From: Bacteroidales bacterium
Lineage (GTDB): Bacteria > Bacteroidota > Bacteroidia > Bacteroidales > M50B96
Assembly: GCA_021740905.1 (NCBI GenBank)
Contig: JAIOYV010000035.1
Coordinates: 1 to 62,572 of the forward strand
Direction of reading: 5' to 3'
Length of the DNA: 62,572 bases
The position numbers were made by a program, and so were the translations under genes. The notes beneath the pieces were generated by a model. The model was not told the DNA's origin. It saw only the letters and a program-made list of their open reading frames with translations, and did not search any database. This document shows positions 22,740 to 53,573 of this stretch, one piece after another. Each line of letters starts with the position of its first letter. The stretch's first letter is position 1.

Positions 22740-22913
22740 TTATTTTTTTATAAGTCCATGTTCTAATAAAGTAGATTCAACAAAAGACCTGTCGGCATCC
22801 AAGCAAGATACTAATTGGTCAATTGTAGATCCGGCTTTCTCAAATAAGCTTACAATTGTCTCTTTCCTTGCTTCGATCCGACCCTCTATTATAAGTTTTT
22901 CTGCTTTGGTCAT
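22740..22913 (-). CDS. Stand-alone Rpn C-terminal module (RpnS-like), copy 2
   Basis: The protein has 57 residues, beginning MTKAEKLIIEGRIEARKETI and ending with SFVESTLLEHGLIKK. It aligns end to end with the C-terminal 55 residues of the Rpn protein encoded immediately upstream (MTTATKLINKGKLEG; SFVEMALKEQGLI). It starts 27 bases after that gene's stop. Homology continues a few codons before the ATG (NIAM in both), up to an in-frame TAA. It is either a separately expressed small protein, by analogy with the antitoxin-like small Rpn forms, or the tail of a decayed second rpn gene. Confidence 0.6.
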   Translation of the reverse strand: MTKAEKLIIEGRIEARKETIVSLFEKAGSTIDQLVSCLDADRSFVESTLLEHGLIKK

Positions 22914-22940: not shown

Positions 22941-23645
22941 CTAAATTAGTCCTTGTTCTTTCAGGGCCATTTCCACAAAGGATTTGTCCAGATCTAAAGT
23001 ATTAGCTATTTGCTCAACACTTAGCCCAATCTTAGTAAATAATTTTACCACATCTTCCTGCTTTCCTTCGAGTTTTCCTTTATTTATAAGTTTCGTTGCT
23101 GTTGTCATGGCTATATTTCCTCCTTTTTCCGAAATTAAACTAATTGCATTTACTATCTCTTTATCCTCAATCACAGTGTTGCTGAACACATAGTGGAAAA
23201 TCGAAACCAGGAATTGTTTTAGTTCATTGTCAATCCCTGGAAAATAATCTTCAAATTTTATTTTGTCCCATTTCTCCTTTCCATGATAAACCAAAATGGG
23301 GATTACCGGGACCAATGCCGTCTTTTGCTTTATGTTCGCCTCCCATATTTTTTGCAAATATTTTAGAAGTTGCAAATGGGGATAATCTACTGCGTAGCTT
23401 TTGTGCTCAATGAGTAATGTAATTTTGATCTTTGTTTTCCCCTTGTACACACAATTGTAAACAAGGTCGGAAAAACTCTCTTGCAGTTCTTCATCAATAT
23501 ACGACGTACTATCCAACTGTAATGTACTAACATCAATATTATTGGACAACCCTTCTGGCAGGACATTTTTAATCAAGTCGCCCGCTTCTTCTTTTTTTGA
23601 AAAAGCCTCCTTGAAAAACTTGTCGTGTGGGTTAATCGTTTTCAA
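22941..23645 (-). CDS. Rpn family recombination-promoting nuclease / putative transposase (PD-(D/E)XK)
   Basis: The protein has 234 residues from a TTG codon; no ATG lies upstream in frame. It has NPHDKFFKEAF at the N-terminus. The catalytic Asp is in SFSDLVYNCVYKG and the E-x-K in LLIEHKSYAVDY, followed by PILVYHGKEKW, all hallmarks of the Rpn/YhgA family. Relatives usually have about 290-320 residues; the missing part lies between the nuclease domain and the C-terminal module. Family members are DNA endonucleases linked to RecA-independent recombination and phage defence. An in-frame ATG at 23108 with an upstream AAGGAGG could give a 55-residue small form. The -7 element TAAATTTG is at 23669-23676. 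Confidence 0.85.
   Translation of the reverse strand: MKTINPHDKFFKEAFSKKEEAGDLIKNVLPEGLSNNIDVSTLQLDSTSYIDEELQESFSDLVYNCVYKGKTKIKITLLIEHKSYAVDYPHLQLLKYLQKIWEANIKQKTALVPVIPILVYHGKEKWDKIKFEDYFPGIDNELKQFLVSIFHYVFSNTVIEDKEIVNAISLISEKGGNIAMTTATKLINKGKLEGKQEDVVKLFTKIGLSVEQIANTLDLDKSFVEMALKEQGLI
23108..23122 (-). promoter_or_regulatory. Internal Shine-Dalgarno and ATG for a small Rpn form
   Basis: Within the rpn gene the minus strand reads AAGGAGG, then AAATATAGCC, then ATG. This is a near-perfect ribosome binding site at a normal distance from the in-frame ATG at 23108. Genes in this phylum seldom carry such a site, so its presence inside a coding region points to internal initiation of a 55-residue C-terminal protein (22941-23108). 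Confidence 0.6.
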
Positions 23646-43448: not shown

Positions 43449-44180
43449 ATGATTGTATTGTTGAAAAAAGAAATATCAGGTTTTTTTAATTCGCTCACTG
43501 GCTACATAGTTATACTTGTTTTTTTATTGATAAACAGCCTGTTCCTTTGGGTTTTCCCAGGTCAATTCAATGTATTGGAAAGTGGGTATGCCAACCTCGA
43601 AACCTTATTTGTAATATCCCCCTGGGTATTTCTGTTTCTCGTGCCTGCCGTAACCATGAGGCTTTTTGCCGAGGAAAAAAGTTCTGGCACCATCGAATTA
43701 ATTATTACCCGTCCGATAAGCGAATTGCAAATAGTAATGGCAAAATACCTGGCTGGGCTAAGTCTGGTTTTGTTTTCGCTTCTACCTTCATTGATCTATT
43801 TCTTTTCGGTGTACCAATTGGGGAGCCCTGTCGGGAACATCGACACAGGGGGAACGTGGGGCTCATATATTGGACTTTTCTTTCTGGCTGCCATTTATGC
43901 CGCCATTGGGGTATTTTCATCCTCGCTCACCGAAAACCAAATTGTGGCCTTCATTGTTGCCATGCTATTGTCTTTTTTCTTTTTCCTTGGCTTCGAATCC
44001 ATCAGTACCCTCGGCTGGTTTGGCAAAATCGACAACCTATTGATCAATCTGGGGATAAACGAACATTACCGTTCCATGAGCCGGGGAGTATTGGACACAC
44101 GCGACATAATCTATTTTCTGGGGGTGATCTGCATTTTTATTTTTGCCACCAAAACTATTGTTGAAAGACGCAAATGGTAA
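43449..44180 (+). CDS. gldF: Gliding motility-type ABC transporter permease GldF
   Basis: The protein has 243 residues with six hydrophobic segments of the ABC-2 permease type. VTMRLFAEEKSSGTIELIITRPISELQIV, shortened here to AEEKSSGTIELIITRPISE, is the ABC-2 signature loop. It is transcribed with gldG, whose start lies 30 bases downstream. In gliding Bacteroidota GldF, GldG and the ATPase GldA form a transporter needed for motility. No ATPase gene is nearby, and many non-gliding relatives keep gldFG, so motility cannot be inferred. Confidence 0.9.
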   Translation: MIVLLKKEISGFFNSLTGYIVILVFLLINSLFLWVFPGQFNVLESGYANLETLFVISPWVFLFLVPAVTMRLFAEEKSSGTIELIITRPISELQIVMAKYLAGLSLVLFSLLPSLIYFFSVYQLGSPVGNIDTGGTWGSYIGLFFLAAIYAAIGVFSSSLTENQIVAFIVAMLLSFFFFLGFESISTLGWFGKIDNLLINLGINEHYRSMSRGVLDTRDIIYFLGVICIFIFATKTIVERRKW

Positions 44181-44210
44181 GGCTTCAAATCAACCAAAAC
44201 TGAAATCAAA

Positions 44211-45920
44211 GTGAACAGAAAAAAAATAAAAAGACAAAATCTCATTCAACTTTTACTGGTAGTGGTCATCGTGATACTATTGAACCTAATTTCGGTTTAC
44301 GTTTTCGAACGCTTCGACCTAACCGCCGAAAAACGCTATACGCTTTCACCAGCCACAACTACATTTCTTGAAGAGATGAAAGACGTAGCCTATTTTAAGG
44401 TGTACCTGAACGGCAAAGATTTACCCCACGGATTTAAACGCCTCCAGAATGCAACCCGCGAAATGCTTGATGAATTCCGCAATTATGCCGGTGACAATAT
44501 CGAATACGAATTTATCGATCCATTTGAAAGTCCTGACCTGTCGACCCGGGGCGAGATAGGCCGCGAACTTATGCAGAAAGGGCTTACCCCAACAAACATC
44601 GAAGAACGTGACGAGAGTGGCGGAGTTTCAGAAAAACTGTTGTTTGCAGGTACTATTGTTAGCTATCGCGACAAAGAAATAGCCCTTGAGCTGTTGCAAA
44701 ACAACATGGCCATTTCGGGCGAAGAAAACCTGAACAACTCCATCCAGGCCATTGAATTTAGGCTGGTAAATACCCTGATGAAGCTGAGTAAAATCCAGAA
44801 GGAAAAGATCGCGTTCATCGAAGGCCATGGCGAACTTAGCGAACTGGAAGTAGCCGACATCAGCCATTCTCTTTCTGAGTCTTATGAAGTGGACAGGGTG
44901 AAAATAAACGGAAAACTGAACCGCCTGGATGGTGTCGATTGTATCATCATAGCCAAACCCGATTCAACATTTAGCAGCCAGGATAAATATATTATCGACC
45001 AGTTTATTATGAAAGGAGGGAAATCACTATGGTTGATCGATGGGGTAAATGTGAGCATGGATAGCCTTATGTATTCGAGTTCTGTTTTGGCGCTCATTAA
45101 TCAAGTCAATCTCGAAGACCAATTGTTTAAGTATGGCGTGAGAATAAATCCCAACCTTATCCAGGATATGCAATGTGGTGGTCTGAGATTAAAAACTTCG
45201 ATGCCTGGTGCCCCCCTAAAGTTCAGGACTTTCCCGTGGATATACTTCCCTTTGTTAATGTCGAACAACGATTTTGCCCTGTCGAAAAACCTCGACCTGG
45301 TAAAAACCCAATTCACAAGCAGCCTCGACACCGTAGGTCATCCGGGCAAAGTAAAAAAAGAATTCCTGCTCTATTCATCGGAACGGAGCAGAAGTGTAAA
45401 TGCCCCCATTCAAATAAAACTCAACATTGTAAACGAAGTACTGGAGGATCAATACTTCAATAAATCATTTCTTCCGGTTGCAGTTCTTTTGGAAGGGGAA
45501 TTCGAATCGGTTTACAAAAACCGTTTGTCGCCCGAATTTACCGATAACAAGGAAGCCAAATACAAAGAATCGAGCCGGCCAACAAAGATGATCGTAGTGG
45601 CCGATGGGGACATCATACGAAACGATTGGCGGGTTGCGGAAGGCCAATATGCGCCGCTCCCACTGGGCTACGATAAACATACCGATATGAGCTTTGCCGG
45701 CAACAAAGATTTTATCCTCAACTCCATCAACTACCTTCTCGATGATTCGGGGGTAATGGAGGTACGATCGCGCGAAATAAAGCTCCGCTTGCTTGATAAA
45801 GCCAGAGTTCAAAACGATCATCTTTTCTGGAAATTGCTGAATGTCCTTGCCCCTCTCTTATTCATTATTACTTTTGGCATCCTGTTCCATTATTTTAGAA
45901 AAAGGAAATACTCGAAATAA
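44211..45920 (+). CDS. gldG: Gliding motility-associated ABC transporter substrate-binding protein GldG
   Basis: The protein has 569 residues from a GTG codon at 44211. An N-terminal transmembrane helix (LLLVVVIVILLNLISVYVF) is followed by FDLTAEKRYTLSPAT, which is typical of GldG. A large periplasmic domain contains the GldG/ABC-type core (IAFIEGHGELSE, then DCIIIAKPDSTF). A C-terminal membrane helix (LLNVLAPLLFIITFGILF) closes the protein. It acts with GldF in the inner membrane. A stand-alone Rpn module starts 32 bases after its stop. Confidence 0.92.
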   Translation: MNRKKIKRQNLIQLLLVVVIVILLNLISVYVFERFDLTAEKRYTLSPATTTFLEEMKDVAYFKVYLNGKDLPHGFKRLQNATREMLDEFRNYAGDNIEYEFIDPFESPDLSTRGEIGRELMQKGLTPTNIEERDESGGVSEKLLFAGTIVSYRDKEIALELLQNNMAISGEENLNNSIQAIEFRLVNTLMKLSKIQKEKIAFIEGHGELSELEVADISHSLSESYEVDRVKINGKLNRLDGVDCIIIAKPDSTFSSQDKYIIDQFIMKGGKSLWLIDGVNVSMDSLMYSSSVLALINQVNLEDQLFKYGVRINPNLIQDMQCGGLRLKTSMPGAPLKFRTFPWIYFPLLMSNNDFALSKNLDLVKTQFTSSLDTVGHPGKVKKEFLLYSSERSRSVNAPIQIKLNIVNEVLEDQYFNKSFLPVAVLLEGEFESVYKNRLSPEFTDNKEAKYKESSRPTKMIVVADGDIIRNDWRVAEGQYAPLPLGYDKHTDMSFAGNKDFILNSINYLLDDSGVMEVRSREIKLRLLDKARVQNDHLFWKLLNVLAPLLFIITFGILFHYFRKRKYSK

Positions 45921-45952
45921 AGACCCTGTCATTAAAAGGAAGAAAGATAGCC

Positions 45953-46135
45953 ATGACAACAGCTACGAAATTGATGAAAAAAGGTACAGAGGAAGGTATA
46001 AAAAAAACTCAGAAAACAACAATTATAAAACTGCACGAAAATGATTGTTTTTCAATCAATCATAATGTAAGATACCTTGATATTGACAGCGTGTTTGTTG
46101 AGGCTAATTTAAAAGAAAGTGGATTAATAAATTAA
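45953..46135 (+). CDS. Stand-alone Rpn C-terminal module (RpnS-like), copy 3
   Basis: The protein has 60 residues, beginning MTTATKLMKKGTEEG and ending FVEANLKESGLIN. It aligns with the C-terminal 55 residues of the Rpn protein at 22941-23645 (MTTATKLINKGKLEG; FVEMALKEQGLI), with a short insertion in the middle. The sequence just upstream (AAAAGGAAGAAAGATAGCC before the ATG) matches the internal initiation region of the full-length rpn gene. No nuclease part is present; gldG ends 32 bases before. It sits between gldG and the DUF4340 gene on the same strand. Probably a mobile small antitoxin-like gene or an inserted fragment. Confidence 0.6.
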   Translation: MTTATKLMKKGTEEGIKKTQKTTIIKLHENDCFSINHNVRYLDIDSVFVEANLKESGLIN

Positions 46136-46183
46136 TTTTGGCTTATTTTGCCGAGCAAGCATTTTCATTACAAACAAACAAGA

Positions 46184-47197
46184 ATGAAGAACAACAAGAT
46201 TTATTTCATCATACTGATTATCTTGGTAATTGCGGCTGCATGGCTTTACATGAGCCGTAAAAACAGTACCATAAAAAAGGAGTTGCGCGATTTTTCCATT
46301 CAGGATACTTCGCTGATATCGAAAGTATTTATGGTGAACAAGCTGAACAAAACACTCCTCCTCGAACGGGATGAATCGAATGGATGGATCGTGAACAAAA
46401 AGTACAAGGTGCGAAAAGATGCCATCGACCTTATCTTAAAAACCTTTAAACGCATGGAAGTGAAATCGCCCGTTTCGAAAGCGGCCTTCGCCAATGCGGT
46501 AAAAGACCTGGCAGCAACTCATGTAAAAGTGGAAGTGTACACCGACGATGAAACCGAACCCTTGAAGACAATCTATATCGGTGGCCCAACCCAGGATATG
46601 TATGGAACGTATATGATGCTTGAAAATTCAAATACCCCTTTCATCGTTCACATTCCCGGCTTTTCGGGTTACTTGTCGTCGCGATTTTTCCTTACCGAAA
46701 ACGATTGGCGCGACAGGTCACTTTTCAAATATGCTTATGATCAAATAAGAACGGTGAGCCTCCAGGATTTTCGTTTACCCGATCAATCGTTTATAGCAAA
46801 CAACCTGGGAGATAACCAATATTCATTAATCCGTTTTGAAGACCAAAAAGAAATTGAGGACTTCGATACAGTGATGGTGAAACAATACCTTGGCTATTAT
46901 AAGAAAATAAGCTACGAAAGGATTCTTGATGGAATATCAGAATCTAAAAGAGATTCTATCCTGAGAAGCGAACCCATCTATCGGATTTCATTAACCGATG
47001 ATAAATCAGTTGAAACATCCATTACTGCATATCTCAAGCCTGGGAGTGGTGTGATTGATCGTGAGGGCGGGGTTTATCCTTACGATCTTGAACGTATGTA
47101 TGCACAAATCAACAACGATTCAAATCTGGTTATTATTCAATACCATGTATTCGACCCGCTTTTCATGAAATTGGATTATTTTCAGAAGAAGAAATAG
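46184..47197 (+). CDS. DUF4340 domain-containing protein
   Basis: The protein has 337 residues from the ATG at 46184, giving MKNNKIYFIILIILVIAAAW, a membrane anchor; an earlier ATG adds 12 residues. The periplasmic part has the DUF4340 pattern: VFMVNKLNKTLLLERDESNGW, shortened here to TLLLERDESNGW; then YKVRKDAIDLILKTFKRMEV and YIGGPTQDMYGTYM. In many bacteria DUF4340 proteins are encoded directly after a GldG-like ABC component, as here. A structural or accessory role with the GldFG transporter is inferred. Confidence 0.85.
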   Translation: MKNNKIYFIILIILVIAAAWLYMSRKNSTIKKELRDFSIQDTSLISKVFMVNKLNKTLLLERDESNGWIVNKKYKVRKDAIDLILKTFKRMEVKSPVSKAAFANAVKDLAATHVKVEVYTDDETEPLKTIYIGGPTQDMYGTYMMLENSNTPFIVHIPGFSGYLSSRFFLTENDWRDRSLFKYAYDQIRTVSLQDFRLPDQSFIANNLGDNQYSLIRFEDQKEIEDFDTVMVKQYLGYYKKISYERILDGISESKRDSILRSEPIYRISLTDDKSVETSITAYLKPGSGVIDREGGVYPYDLERMYAQINNDSNLVIIQYHVFDPLFMKLDYFQKKK

Positions 47198-47290
47198 AGC
47201 GATAATAAATTGTGTTAAGAAGAAAACAACCTGGTTTTATATATCTCAAATGACAAACTTCAAAAAACAAATAAAACCTAAAGATATTCA

Positions 47291-47899
47291 ATGAATTTAA
47301 CAAGCCAGGAAACCATGCTGCAAATTGGAGATACTCTTATTAGTCTCGATATTATCGATAAGAAATTTATTTGCGATGTCCCCAAATGCCTCGGCAAATG
47401 CTGCGAACATGGCGATTCGGGTGCTCCGTTAGAGGAAGGTGAAGCCGCCATAATCAAAGAACAATACCCGTCGATAAAACCATACCTGAGCGAAACAGGC
47501 AAAAAAAGCATCGAAGAAATTGGCACCTCCACCATCGATAGCGATGGCGACCTGGTAACCACACTAATAAACGATAAGGAGTGCTCTTTTACGGTGTACG
47601 AAAAAGGGATCGCCACTTGTGGCATAGAGCGGGCCTGGGAAAACGGCGATTGTTCGTTGCAAAAGCCTATTAGTTGCCACCTCTACCCAATACGGTTGAA
47701 AAAATATCCCACCTTCACAGCCGTAAACTACAATGAGTGGGATATCTGCAAGCCAGCCCTTTTATTTGGTGAAAAAGAAAGCCTGCCTTTGTACAAATTC
47801 CTTAAAACTCCTCTTATCAGAAAATTTGGCGAAGACTGGTACGAAGAATTGGAATTGGCAGCTGAAAGCCTGGAGGGGGATAAAAATCAACTTCAATAA
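47291..47899 (+). CDS. DUF3109 family Cys-rich protein
   Basis: The protein has 202 residues. Cysteines fall in CDVPKCLGKCCEHGDSG (about 29-39), KECSFTV, ATCGIERAW, GDCSLQKPISCHLYPIR and WDICKPA. This is the DUF3109 (YkgJ-related) pattern that suggests a bound zinc or iron-sulfur centre. It is cytoplasmic. The biochemical role is unknown. It follows the DUF4340 gene by about 95 bases and is probably a separate gene or the last member of that operon. Confidence 0.88.
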   Translation: MNLTSQETMLQIGDTLISLDIIDKKFICDVPKCLGKCCEHGDSGAPLEEGEAAIIKEQYPSIKPYLSETGKKSIEEIGTSTIDSDGDLVTTLINDKECSFTVYEKGIATCGIERAWENGDCSLQKPISCHLYPIRLKKYPTFTAVNYNEWDICKPALLFGEKESLPLYKFLKTPLIRKFGEDWYEELELAAESLEGDKNQLQ

Positions 47900-48113: not shown

Positions 48114-50540
48114 ATGAAGAAAATCGTTTCTGTTTTCTTTATCCTGTCCTGCTTTAGCATCGTTGCCTTCAATGTAAAAACTTCTGACAACAATTTAATA
48201 AACCAAAGCACCCAGCAATACGATGCTGCATTGTTGCAAATAATCAGTCCTGTGAATGGCTGTGATCTTGGTTTGGAGGATGTGTCTGTGATTGTTGTCA
48301 ACCTGGGCGACACAATGCTTGCCGGAAGCCTGACTGTTTCTTACAGTGCTAATTCGGCAAGCCCGGTGATTGAAACGATAGGCATTCCTTTATTCCCCGG
48401 CGACACTTTTGTTTATACTTTCTCTCAGCCCTTGAATATGGTGGTAAATGTCGATACCGTTTTCGAACTAATTGCCTGGCTAGATCTGACAGGCGATATA
48501 AACCAGACCAACGATACCATCACCAAAGCTGTAATTTCATACTTTAAGCCATCCGATCCCCTTTCGGTTAACCAAACAGTATGGTTTGGAAATTCGGCCA
48601 ACCTTACCGTTTCGCCAATCGATTCAAACTTAAATTATAATTGGTACGATTCAATCGGGGGAAATCTTATAAATACCGGAACGGTATATGAAACCCCTGT
48701 TTTAACTGACACAACTTCCTATTTTGTTCTGGCAACAAGTTCAAGTTTTTCTACTATTATCGTTGGATCTGGCACCTACTCTCTTGGCACCACAAGTAAT
48801 AACCCTTATGGTCAGTTCTACACAAGCAATAATTCGCAGTTTTTGATCAAGGCCGAAGAATTGATTGCTGCCGGATGTACTGCCGGTTCGATCACCTCAC
48901 TGGCCCTCGATGTCACAACCCCAACCTCTGCAACAAACAATGGAGACAATATGGACAATTTCAGTATAAAAATAGGGCATACCACAATTTCTGAAATCGA
49001 TACAAACTGGATTACCGGATTGACAGAAGTTTTCTTTGCGCCACAATGGCCTACTGTGGCAGGTTGGAATGTGCATGAATTCCAAAACCCTTTTCAATGG
49101 GATGGTGTAAGCAATCTAATGGTTGAGTTTTGTTTCTCGAATGGTACATCCAACTATTCCTCTAATGCCATTTTGCGCGCTACCGATGTTGGGTTTCAGG
49201 TCGGGCATGGTATTTATACCGATGCTGTGTATACCTGTGGCGACCCAGGGGCTTTCCCAAAAACAGCTACCACCAAACGTCCCAACATGAAATTGCAAAT
49301 CTTTCATCCAGGTTGCTCAACAAACCTGGTAGAAGTGACAGCCAATGTGAAGTATGCGGATTACGATGTGGCTGTGGTCGAAATAATATCACCGGTTACT
49401 GCCGAATATTTAGAATATGAGCCGGTTACGGTGGCAATTGTAAATCTGGGCAATTTCGCCATAGATAATTTTCCTGTCTCTTATACCGAGGCTATCGGAT
49501 GGCCGATTTTTTCACAGGAAATATTTTCAGACACAATAAACCCCGGAGATACTGCCATTTTTTCGTTTAACATTCCGGCCTATTTTCCTTCGGGCGAAAC
49601 AAGTTACAATTTATGTGTTTTCACAGGTCTTGCTGCCGATGAAAATTCATCGAACGATACCCTTTGTGCTACAATATGGCAAACCGGTGGGCCCTGTTTG
49701 TGGCCAACGCAATATGGTCCCATAAATAACCAACCGGTAAGTGGGGTTACCACTTCTGCTGGCGACCAGGAATGGTGGAAATTTACTGCTACCACCGATT
49801 ACGAGAATGTTTCTGTCTCGTTGTGTGGGTCAACTTTCGATACCAAACTTGCCATTTACACCGATTGCTCCGAAGCTCCCCTTTGGAATAACGACGATAA
49901 TTATGCTGCCTGTAGTTCTTCAGCCAGTCAGATTGATATCTCAAACCTGCCAGCCGGAACTTATAAAGTAAAAGTGTTCGGATATTCTTCTTACTTTGGG
50001 AATTATTTTTTGTCGATCACGGGAACTGCTGTACAAACAATCAACCTGCCGGCCTTATGGAGCATCTTTTCAACCTACATAGATCCTACTTCTCCCAATA
50101 TTTCTGATGTACTAAGCGAAGTCCAACCCAATATGATTATTGCCAAGGATGGGCTTGGGCAACCCTACTGGCCACAATATGGGGTAAACCTGATCGGAAA
50201 CCTTACACCAGGCTGGGGCTATCAAATAAAGATGACAAACGCTGATACTCTTTTGGTGGAAGGAAATATCATCCAGCCCGACACCCTTACAATCCAGCTC
50301 CCGGCCCAATGGAGCATGCTTGGCTATGTACGTATGTCACCCGCACCCATCGATCAAATATTGTTGCCAATCATAAATAATGTATCTATTGTAAAGAATG
50401 GAAATGGCCAGGTTTATTGGCCAGCTTATAGTGTTAACCTGATAGGAAACATGCAACCCGGGCAGGGTTATCAAATCAAAATGACTTCGCCTCAGAGCTT
50501 TACCTATCCTGCCAATTCAGTTATTTTTTCAACCAACTAA
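48114..50540 (+). CDS. Large secreted multidomain protein with paired C-terminal module
   Basis: The protein has 808 residues with a signal peptide (about 1-20). CARDB-like beta domains (about 35-150, and about 420-525, DYDVAVVEIISPVTAEYLEY) flank an Ig-like segment with Asn/Asp-rich strands. A pre-peptidase C-terminal-like domain covers about 530-640 (GDQEWWKFTA, then TKLAIYTDC, then LPAGTYKVKVFGY). The last 160 residues are two copies of a module (LPALWSIFST..KDGLGQPYWPQYGVNLIGN..GYQIKM and LPAQWSMLGY..KNGNGQVYWPAYSVNLIGN..GYQIKM). There is no standard T9SS type A domain. It is probably extracellular or surface-attached; function unknown. Confidence 0.8.
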   Translation: MKKIVSVFFILSCFSIVAFNVKTSDNNLINQSTQQYDAALLQIISPVNGCDLGLEDVSVIVVNLGDTMLAGSLTVSYSANSASPVIETIGIPLFPGDTFVYTFSQPLNMVVNVDTVFELIAWLDLTGDINQTNDTITKAVISYFKPSDPLSVNQTVWFGNSANLTVSPIDSNLNYNWYDSIGGNLINTGTVYETPVLTDTTSYFVLATSSSFSTIIVGSGTYSLGTTSNNPYGQFYTSNNSQFLIKAEELIAAGCTAGSITSLALDVTTPTSATNNGDNMDNFSIKIGHTTISEIDTNWITGLTEVFFAPQWPTVAGWNVHEFQNPFQWDGVSNLMVEFCFSNGTSNYSSNAILRATDVGFQVGHGIYTDAVYTCGDPGAFPKTATTKRPNMKLQIFHPGCSTNLVEVTANVKYADYDVAVVEIISPVTAEYLEYEPVTVAIVNLGNFAIDNFPVSYTEAIGWPIFSQEIFSDTINPGDTAIFSFNIPAYFPSGETSYNLCVFTGLAADENSSNDTLCATIWQTGGPCLWPTQYGPINNQPVSGVTTSAGDQEWWKFTATTDYENVSVSLCGSTFDTKLAIYTDCSEAPLWNNDDNYAACSSSASQIDISNLPAGTYKVKVFGYSSYFGNYFLSITGTAVQTINLPALWSIFSTYIDPTSPNISDVLSEVQPNMIIAKDGLGQPYWPQYGVNLIGNLTPGWGYQIKMTNADTLLVEGNIIQPDTLTIQLPAQWSMLGYVRMSPAPIDQILLPIINNVSIVKNGNGQVYWPAYSVNLIGNMQPGQGYQIKMTSPQSFTYPANSVIFSTN

Positions 50541-50768: not shown

Positions 50769-53573
50769 ATGAAAAAGATTAATGTAATGATCGTTTTGGT
50801 GGCATTGGCCATCGGTAGCTTTGGACAAGTTGCCCAGCAAGCTATGCAAAAAAGCTGCGAGCTATCTGAAGTTGAACATTTCACCGCCAAGGACTGGAAA
50901 GACTATAAAAGCACCAAAGCCTTTGGCGCTGTGATCTGGGAAGAAGATTTTAGTGGGGCAACGTTACCCACCGGTTGGGTTACGATCGACAATAATAGCC
51001 TGGGTTATGTCTGGATTTGGACGAACTCAGCAAATCCGGGTTTAAACGGGCAGTATTCTACCAATACACCTCCGTTTAACTCGACCACAGCAACCAATGG
51101 TTATATGGTGCTCCCGGGTGACCATTACAACACCCCTATCCCCTCAATGCCAGACGATATGGATGCCTACGTACAAACGGCAGCCATAAACTGCGACACG
51201 GCCCATTCGGTGATGTTGAAATTTGAACAGTATTTCCGGTATTGCTGCGGCAACGACCAGATAATGCAGGTATCGGTAAGCACAAACAATACCACCTGGA
51301 CACATTTCGATGTATCGCAAGGGGTAGCTACAAACTACGCCTCGGACAACCCCGACGTTGTGCTCTTAAACATAACCCCCTTAGCAGCCCTGCAATCAAC
51401 TGTTTATATCCGATTCTATATGACGGGTGTGTCGCACTACTATTGGGCTGTTGACGATATTCAATTAATGACTGCCTCGCAAAACGATATCAAATTTGCC
51501 AATGCCTACAACTATTTTTATGATTCAAATTGGGGCGCGACAGGCTCATTCTCAAAAATCCCTACAAACCAGATCATGCCGAATGTTTGTTCGGCTGATG
51601 TGTGGAATTATGGCGACAATGTTCAAACTAATGTTACTCTAGAGGCTGAAATTTGGAACAATGCAAACCAATTGGTATTCAACCAAACCGATGACACTTC
51701 GCAACTTTCGTTTAACGATACAGCTTTTCTTTCTATTGATAGTCTTTTCACCGCTCCTTCATCGCCAAATACCTATTCGGTCGCATATCATTGCTATCAG
51801 ACACAAACAGATGAAATACCCGAGGACAACTTTACTGATACCATAAGCTGGGAAATTACCCAAAACAAAATTTTTGCACGCGACAGGCAACAGGAACGCT
51901 GGACAGGCGGGGTCCTTTCCGTCAATAGCTTTTCCGGTGGTTTGGATGGCGATTTTCTAGGCGTCCAGTATTTTCTGCCAAACACCGCTACAGTGAATTC
52001 AATCTCTGTTTTTATTGATTACCATACCGACCCGGGCACTATCATCGTGGGGCAAATCTATGAGAATTCTCCAACTTCTACCTACTTTCCTGTAATCGGT
52101 ACAGAGGAATATGAAATCCAGGAAGCCGACCTGGGTACCTGGGTAACCCTACCTGTATATATCATTAATCCAGGTAGTGAAGTTCTGCCTGGTGGTTCTA
52201 ATTACGTATGTGGCGTTGAATGTTACTCGGGCTTCAATGATTTGTATATAGGTTCTGAACCCGGCGATTATCCACATTTGATTCATCTCGAAACCAAAAT
52301 CCGCCTAACTACAAACTGGTATTGGATCCTTGATCTGCCATATATCCGGCTTAATCTGGCTGGGGCTGTATTGCCCCCTGTTTTCGTATCGGCCCCTTTT
52401 ACCGAAATTTGTGCCTCATCGGCACAAAATTACCCACAGGTTTTGGAGATTGAAGTTTCCGATCCGGGCAACCTTCCGCTTACCCTAACGGCAATCGACC
52501 TGCCCACTTTTGTCAGCTCTTTTACCGACAATGGCAACGGAACGGCCACCATCATTGCCGAACCAACCCCTGCCGACATGGGATCGTCCTTTAAGTTTCG
52601 CTTTCGTGCCGACAATGGCACAGTTCAAAACGAACAAATTTTTTATGCCCTTGTTGATTCATTTGCCGGCTGCATCCCCCCAATATTACCAATCGCTCCT
52701 GATTGGAATTACACCAATACCGGCAATTCACACGTCATCCTTATACCCGATACCATCCCGGTAACCATTGATGGCATCCAGGTTGCGGCGGGCGACTACA
52801 TCGGGGTTTTCTACGATTCGCTGGGCACACTTGCTTGTGCCGGGTATCAGCAATGGACCGGGCAAACCACTTCGGTTACGGCCTGGGGCGACGATGCCTC
52901 GACCACTACACCCGATGGATTTGCTCCGGGCGAAGCCTTTATCTGGAAGATCTGGCGGCTTTCTGATTTTAATGAGTTCAATGCAACTGCAACCTATATG
53001 CAACCTCCAGTCATGTTGAACACCGGTTTTTATATCAGCTACGGGATGAGTGGGCTTACCTCACTACAAGGCTACACCATGCAATATCAAAATATCTCAT
53101 TGCCCCAGGGCTGGAGTTACTTTTCGAGTTATATAATCCCCGTTGAAGCAAGCATGGATAGCCTTTGTGCGCCTTTCGTATCGGAAGTGCTCATTGCCAA
53201 AGATGGCAATGGGAACACCTATTGGCCCCTATTTGGGCTAAATTTAATAGGGGATATCAGCATTGGCCAAGGCTACCAGGTAAAACTTGCTTCGGCCCAA
53301 ACTATGATTGTTGCAGGGCAAGCAGTACAACCCCAGAATATCCCTATTACCTTAGTGCAGAGCTGGAGCCTTCTGGGCTATCTACGCCAAAACCCGGGGC
53401 CAATAACTGCGATGTTAAGTTCGGTGGTAACCCAGCTTATTATTGTCAAAAATGGTGACGGGCAGCTTTATTGGCCGCAGTGGGGACTGAATGACATAGT
53501 AAACATGATGCCTGGCAAAGGGTATCAAATCAAGATGAGTTCGCAGCAGACCTTCACTTATCCTGCCAATTAA
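50769..53573 (+). CDS. Large secreted multidomain protein with paired C-terminal module (paralogue)
   Basis: The protein has 934 residues with a signal peptide (MKKINVMIVLVALAIGSFG). A choice-of-anchor-like beta domain follows (FSGATLPTGWVTIDNN, about 58-235, with IRFYMTGVSHYYWAVDDIQL). Further beta domains and an Ig/cadherin-like domain lie at about 545-635 (VLEIEVSDPGNLPLTLTAID, then FKFRFRADNGTVQNEQIFY). An approximately 110-residue domain (about 645-760) has PVTIDGIQVAAGDYIGVFYD. The last 160 residues are the duplicated module (AKDGNGNTYWPLFGLNLIGD..GYQVKL; VKNGDGQLYWPQWGLNDIVN..GYQIKM) and end YPAN. It follows its paralogue by 228 bases, with a hairpin between. Confidence 0.8.
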   Translation: MKKINVMIVLVALAIGSFGQVAQQAMQKSCELSEVEHFTAKDWKDYKSTKAFGAVIWEEDFSGATLPTGWVTIDNNSLGYVWIWTNSANPGLNGQYSTNTPPFNSTTATNGYMVLPGDHYNTPIPSMPDDMDAYVQTAAINCDTAHSVMLKFEQYFRYCCGNDQIMQVSVSTNNTTWTHFDVSQGVATNYASDNPDVVLLNITPLAALQSTVYIRFYMTGVSHYYWAVDDIQLMTASQNDIKFANAYNYFYDSNWGATGSFSKIPTNQIMPNVCSADVWNYGDNVQTNVTLEAEIWNNANQLVFNQTDDTSQLSFNDTAFLSIDSLFTAPSSPNTYSVAYHCYQTQTDEIPEDNFTDTISWEITQNKIFARDRQQERWTGGVLSVNSFSGGLDGDFLGVQYFLPNTATVNSISVFIDYHTDPGTIIVGQIYENSPTSTYFPVIGTEEYEIQEADLGTWVTLPVYIINPGSEVLPGGSNYVCGVECYSGFNDLYIGSEPGDYPHLIHLETKIRLTTNWYWILDLPYIRLNLAGAVLPPVFVSAPFTEICASSAQNYPQVLEIEVSDPGNLPLTLTAIDLPTFVSSFTDNGNGTATIIAEPTPADMGSSFKFRFRADNGTVQNEQIFYALVDSFAGCIPPILPIAPDWNYTNTGNSHVILIPDTIPVTIDGIQVAAGDYIGVFYDSLGTLACAGYQQWTGQTTSVTAWGDDASTTTPDGFAPGEAFIWKIWRLSDFNEFNATATYMQPPVMLNTGFYISYGMSGLTSLQGYTMQYQNISLPQGWSYFSSYIIPVEASMDSLCAPFVSEVLIAKDGNGNTYWPLFGLNLIGDISIGQGYQVKLASAQTMIVAGQAVQPQNIPITLVQSWSLLGYLRQNPGPITAMLSSVVTQLIIVKNGDGQLYWPQWGLNDIVNMMPGKGYQIKMSSQQTFTYPAN

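Follow-up and report, generated by a model that had tools for sequence, protein, structure and literature searches.

We conclude that an open reading frame (ORF) encoding 60 amino acids within a gliding-motility operon of a Bacteroidales bacterium is, judged by its sequence, an RpnS-type module that lacks a nuclease part. The ORF starts with ATG and occupies positions 45953-46135 on the forward strand of the 62,572-nucleotide stretch of DNA analysed here, which we call the window; we refer to the ORF as the orphan. We consider it probable that the orphan is a relocated rpnS gene, a statement about identity and origin that holds whether its fate was to be an antitoxin or a relic.

The E. coli rpn genes encode a full nuclease together with a small neutralising tail protein made from an internal start (Zhong et al., PMC10327210, cited here in part), and the preliminary description of the window was correct in invoking this precedent. 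The same source describes separate copies of the tail gene, located behind rpnE (ypaA) and, in some strains, behind rpnC, and regards DUF4351 (PF14261) proteins as separate RpnS genes of some species. Detached RpnS copies are thus of a kind already known. Within the open-licence literature, a scope that the supplementary list of separate RpnS genes in PMC10327210 lies outside, we found no description of an RpnS gene far from any rpn.

The orphan and its leader in the gldG operon

All the genes of the operon considered here are on the forward strand. gldF (43449-44180, TIGR03518) is followed by a full-length gldG (44211-45920, TIGR03521 positions 1-552 of 552), and the next gene after the orphan encodes a DUF4340 protein (46184-47197, PF14238). 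The orphan ATG is 32 nt past the gldG stop codon and the ORF ends 48 nt ahead of the DUF4340 ATG. As a separate observation, two neighbouring large ORFs further along the same strand (48114-50540 and 50769-53573) have in common a C-terminal motif, [AV]K[DN]G.G..YWP ... G.GYQ[IV]K, of which each carries two copies.

A protein search of the bacterium's own genome (up to E 10) returned four matches, the orphan itself included. The other three were the C-terminal module of the window rpn (47% identity, E 8.6e-6), as the preliminary description had proposed, that of another rpn gene, on contig C30 (44-47% identity, E 6.5e-5), and a stand-alone copy at 22740-22913 (43%, E 0.0015) which that description had missed, its account of the orphan as a stand-alone module being otherwise upheld. 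The nearest rpn gene is 22 kb distant from the orphan.

The homology extends into the 24 nt directly upstream of the orphan ATG (45929-45952, AAAAGGA ... ATAGCC-ATG), which correspond to the internal-start region of rpn and match it at 19/24 positions in the window rpn, 18/24 in the C30 rpn and 15/24 in the stand-alone copy adjacent to the window rpn. When the leaders of all other ATGs in the window (2,208 over both strands) were ranked by their match to that of the orphan, the internal start of the window rpn came first and the adjacent copy second, with all others at 14/24 or fewer, so that the shared leader noticed at the outset is borne out. Across the start, 44 of 51 positions match; the 12 nt that precede the leader agree at 4/12, and past the orphan stop codon the match amounts to 16-17/48. 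Because the resemblance breaks off some 24 nt ahead of the ATG on one side and at the stop codon on the other, what is present is a defined piece, leader plus module. We envisage that a PF04754 rpn gene contributed its 3′ portion, beginning roughly 24 nt ahead of the internal start and running to the stop, and that this piece came to lie behind the gldG stop in the same orientation; the identity and extent of the piece are as just described, and the route by which it came there we infer.

The orphan matched no Pfam family up to E 1, the DUF4351 (PF14261) profile among them, although DUF4351 proteins likewise consist of a stand-alone Rpn tail domain. There was no match in PADLOC, nor in Rfam at the gathering score for 45000-47000, and PHROGs gave a marginal match only (E 0.18). 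In some genomes RefSeq names such ORFs “Rpn/YhgA-type helix-turn-helix domain-containing protein”.

Did a nuclease gene once stand here? A tblastn search of the collected Rpn proteins over 44201-47300 recovered the module and no nuclease part near it, in agreement with the preliminary description. Several alignments extended upstream into the 3′ end of gldG, in another frame and through a stop, and, the gldG sequence concerned being conserved, we regard these alignments as over-extended; the remaining matches had E 0.05 or worse. A search of 45860-46230 for terminal inverted repeats or a target-site duplication gave repeats of 8-12 nt only, and the longest direct one, ATTAMTTTTGGC, does not exceed chance expectation and has its start within conserved gldG. 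A microhomology noticed by eye at the gldG stop was dropped because its register does not fit.

The insert is confined to its own lineage as far as the data go. We took 110 gldG loci, dropped one that had no stop, and scanned the remaining 109, the window's own included, over at most 700 nt past the gldG stop, or to the contig end where that came sooner (at least two genomes occur in both of the gldG collections used). In none of the 108 other loci was the module found, which speaks for relocation and is also the outcome, within contig reach, of the check for a full rpn gene at homologous loci suggested in the preliminary description. The gldG-DUF4340 gap measures 263 nt here; in the closest relatives whose gap can be read, G002 and G001 (gldG 63% and 54% identical, respectively), it is 50 and 27 nt. 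At another locus, L058 (gldG 56%), the contig ends too soon to show it. Three loci (L016, L038 and L070) have gaps of 233-395 nt behind gldG with no module inside.

The orphan would presumably be transcribed together with gldG, and its inherited internal-start leader would enable translation. In favor of this, there is no terminator-like site between gldG and the DUF4340 gene; to be counted against it are promoter-like sites that are at chance level and a leader with no unusual RNA folding. A hairpin inside the ORF itself has a z of -0.8.

Fold, kinship and selection

The start motif MT-A--L---G is common to the orphan, the tails of E. coli RpnA and RpnE and the stand-alone YpaA, and this supports a relationship across modules that are otherwise distant, with 17-28% identity between the orphan and the three aligned E. 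coli modules. In a profile comparison with tails from relatives in the same order (profile A6), only 14 columns at the start were joined (probability 70%), indicating that the module varies strongly outside this stretch. An AlphaFold2 (AF2) model of the orphan, based on four sequences, has helices at residues 3-31, 35-42 and 46-56 (mean pLDDT 75.9, pTM 0.50), a further point for an RpnS identity, and the orphan is accordingly predicted to adopt a three-helix fold with a long first helix, in agreement with solved RpnA(S) as described in PMC10327210. By analogy with that description (Zhong et al., PMC10327210), the protein would consist of three helices and form dimers via the long first one. 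The orphan thus resembles E. coli RpnS (RpnA to RpnE) in its start motif, MT.A..L...G, in module size and long first helix, in length steps of four residues, and in having a start region of its own, and differs from it in lying outside any rpn gene and in its distant sequence.

The model also raises the notion that the orphan is a small helix-turn-helix (HTH) protein that binds DNA and was co-opted to regulate the operon. The model does resemble DNA-binding domains of the HTH class (Z 6.8 for DeoR and 6.2 for FapR), and an HHpred link to HTH motifs is described by Zhong et al. (PMC10327210). However, the search tool itself cautions that models of this kind commonly give Z values below 8, the best Foldseek E value was 0.13, and no link to a promoter was found, so that we regard a regulatory role as very improbable. 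The fold searches with the orphan model gave common HTH-like matches only, among the matches listed; the solved chain 7th0, which by its sequence is the E. coli RpnA tail (residues 244-292), is not among the best 50 matches listed by either search.

Is the orphan maintained as a protein? It keeps 16 of the 18 columns that are invariant in the other three modules of the genome, and the same leave-one-out count gives 16/20, 16/19 and 16/19 for those modules. Codon differences between the orphan and the others peak at third positions (35, 29 and 35, versus 22-26 and 17-20 at the other positions), and a similar third-position excess is found among the other modules; both the retained columns and this excess count in favor of the orphan being a relocated rpnS gene. 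Counted against it are the two conserved residues that are altered (E to T and G to C), a GC content of 28-29% versus 34-36% in the other modules, and the fact that no orthologs of the orphan were found in the genomes searched. The low GC and the two changes in conserved columns are, as sequence features, compatible with relaxed selection. Freeing omega on the orphan branch from a fixed value of 1 gained only 0.8-1.2 log-likelihood units, on a branch that includes time spent inside an rpn gene and with branches and synonymous sites saturated.

These observations bear on a quite different account, to which we give slightly less than an even chance: that a whole rpn gene, or an rpn with a downstream rpnS, once stood here and that its toxic part was deleted, leaving as a relic a tail that stayed open and is either expressed or unused. 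The codon test is compatible with neutrality and the low GC also fits a relic. Conversely, no nuclease trace was found near the orphan, which retains the key columns no worse than the other modules, and a frame with its ATG stays open in 4-8% of substitution-only simulations at 0.83 substitutions per codon, a branch length that was fitted under neutrality and includes time before the insertion.

Resident Rpn proteins and helix length

The rpn gene of the window (22941-23645, reverse strand, 234 aa) matches PF04754 at 9.1e-38 and TIGR01784 just over the cut-off. The preliminary description had called it full, and it does combine a PF04754 nuclease with a tail; it is nevertheless without 67 residues that the C30 rpn has between nuclease core and tail, and its PF04754 match ends at profile position 166 of 203, so it may be impaired. 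Its C-terminal RpnS module spans 22941-23108, with an internal ATG at 23108-23106, AAAGGAGG directly before it and the leader of the internal start at 23109-23132. The second stand-alone module (22740-22913, reverse strand, 57 aa) begins 27 nt downstream of the rpn stop, which is the known rpnE/ypaA arrangement of E. coli, and its helix-1 length equals that of the window rpn tail. It is a candidate for the cognate antitoxin of the window rpn.

The second rpn gene, at 1014-1970 of the retrieved C30 stretch, has five GKIE units encoded by a 12-nt tandem array, and a decayed piece of its tail is found about 800 nt behind it (C30:135-197). At the internal start, 8 of 10 shared-residue codons are identical between the two rpn genes versus 55 of 115 elsewhere (one-sided p 0.05), a conservation that is suggestive only. 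The genome also abounds in Rpn-family genes from another subfamily, the TIGR01784 type, with proteins confirmed on three contigs (C111, C56 and C22) and candidate rows on five more (C57, C69, C7, C43 and C91). None of these matched the A2 module profile at E 0.01, and a partner of the orphan may be among them, their helix lengths lying outside our comparison.

Among the four modules of the genome, the length of the first helix differs in four-residue steps. Helix 1 of the orphan, as read from the alignment, exceeds by four residues (one unit) that of the window rpn tail and that of the adjacent copy. It falls short by 12 residues (three units) of helix 1 in the C30 tail, which itself exceeds the window rpn by 16 residues, the excess being the 12-nt tandem array. 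E. coli RpnA(S) and RpnB(S) give no cross-protection and one unit added to RpnC(S) abolished neutralisation, according to the parts of PMC10327210 cited here. Because repeat number sets specificity in E. coli, the mismatch suggests that the orphan probably neutralises neither PF04754 Rpn found in the genome. By the E. coli rule the adjacent copy would fit the window rpn in helix length and the orphan would fit neither rpn.

E. coli K-12 offers a parallel to this mismatch, in that YpaA is one unit longer than the RpnE tail. ypaA is, like the orphan, a separate one-module ORF, and the additional four-residue unit is KLEG; ypaA, though, lies 12 bp behind rpnE, while 22 kb separate the orphan, which sits in a motility operon, from the closest rpn. 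RpnE was inactive in overexpression assays, as described in the part of PMC5350276 we draw on.

We had to consider, then, whether the orphan cross-protects against the resident Rpn proteins, the protective “free antitoxin” of the preliminary description. It is the same module in the same genome, with 47% identity to both resident PF04754 tails. Against this, its first helix is off by one and by three four-residue units, both E. coli observations (PMC10327210, in part) run counter to neutralisation across such differences, and it is the adjacent copy, not the orphan, that equals the window rpn in length. We therefore think cross-protection quite unlikely, and that part of the earlier proposal is doubtful.

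Relatives in other genomes and the possible fates of the orphan

Of 99 genomes, 10 carry PF04754 genes, the bacterium's own among them, whereas none of the three others from its family does; one of those three is 60% complete. The A2 profile, searched against 395 genomes of the phylum (own included), gave weak matches in six genomes outside its own, the best at 7.8e-5. The full window Rpn matched in 2 of 294 other genomes of the class at 1e-10 and in 3,278 plasmid records, all at less than 60% identity, and its profile matched no viral contig. The orphan itself had no match up to E 1 in plasmids or phages. Pattern matches in 23 genome-contig and 95 viral-contig stretches yielded no relative by tblastn, and a single orphan match among 98 other genomes of relatives (27 residues, E 0.009) was taken as chance.

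A survey for modules with the relatives' tail profile covered the ten PF04754 genomes plus G371, with the rpn carrier G384 outside it, and was made on 35 fetched stretches (15 + 20) representing part of the short-frame rows. These stretches contain 36 module ORFs with no nuclease motif. We rejected 21 of them, in G013, G019, G037, G059, G068, G072 and G371, as probably cut rpn genes since they begin at a contig end, from which it appears that assemblies probably break inside rpn genes; counts of stand-alone RpnS genes in draft genomes would be inflated if made with no contig-end check. Of the other 15, four are directly behind an rpn (two in G013, one in G072 and one, broken, in G068). A test for nuclease remnants covered seven of the remaining 11, the four outside it being G371:C247, two on G037:C43 and G079:C50, and remnants were present in two. 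At G079:C80 (locus L207, 4105-4551) a single intergenic gap contains the start of a nuclease (rpn residues 14-38), part of a tail, and a module frame that is open over 59 codons, and at G371:C278 a nuclease start is joined to a tail near the contig end. With the proteins used, none was found at G059:C178, G059:C190, G371:C212, G079:C241 or G079:C214; the two G059 modules have no start region. Detached or remnant modules thus recur in related genomes. Taken together, G079:C80, G371:C278, the 67 residues lost from the window rpn and the decayed C30 piece indicate that loss of nuclease sequence while the tail survives is recurrent in these genomes.

What route, then, brought the piece to its place? 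Two fit: leader and module may have been copied alone, or a whole rpn may have lost its nuclease. Copying alone, suggested by the adjacent copy and the copies behind rpn in G013, G072 and G068, was proposed in the preliminary description as spread of the small gene by itself, and it fits as a route. It is not the sole one, because G079:C80 and G371:C278 lost most of the nuclease and kept the tail, so the same end state could arise from a complete rpn that later suffered a deletion. The same two loci, and the decayed module piece in the bacterium's own genome, also count in favor of the relic set out above.

To the other possible fate of the relocated gene, that it is a still active antitoxin for an absent or incoming Rpn, we assign, by analogy, a chance a little short of even. 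The product would bind and silence an Rpn having the same number of tail-helix units, as E. coli RpnS does (PMC10327210, in part). Since the resident PF04754 Rpn proteins have one unit fewer or three more, the target of the orphan is probably absent; it would be either an Rpn lost from the lineage or one arriving by horizontal transfer. Orphan antitoxins and anti-addiction modules of type II toxin-antitoxin systems are comparable in that an antitoxin is kept with no toxin gene, although other protein families are involved. A broader proposition, that free-standing RpnS genes with their own leader are transferable immunity genes behind housekeeping operons, each directed against incoming Rpn nucleases with one helix-repeat length, seems to us unlikely.

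Rpn systems are toxin-antitoxin genes-within-genes whose specificity is set by repeat number, and an orphan that is far from any rpn, with a helix length unlike that of either PF04754 Rpn found in its genome, is a natural case for asking whether detached RpnS genes confer immunity against a foreign Rpn or are debris of toxin loss. The window offers a matched pair for this question, a neighbouring copy that equals the rpn tail in length and a remote one that does not.

A last observation concerns the internal start in relatives. Among 13 Rpn tails from the same order obtained by motif search (e.g., L145, L154 and L149), M is at the position of the internal ATG in 0/13, so an internal start, if there is any, must differ there; V, I, T, E or G replaces it, as in EKFVSTAMRL. 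The Rpn tail on G038:C157 reads VMTLAEQ.
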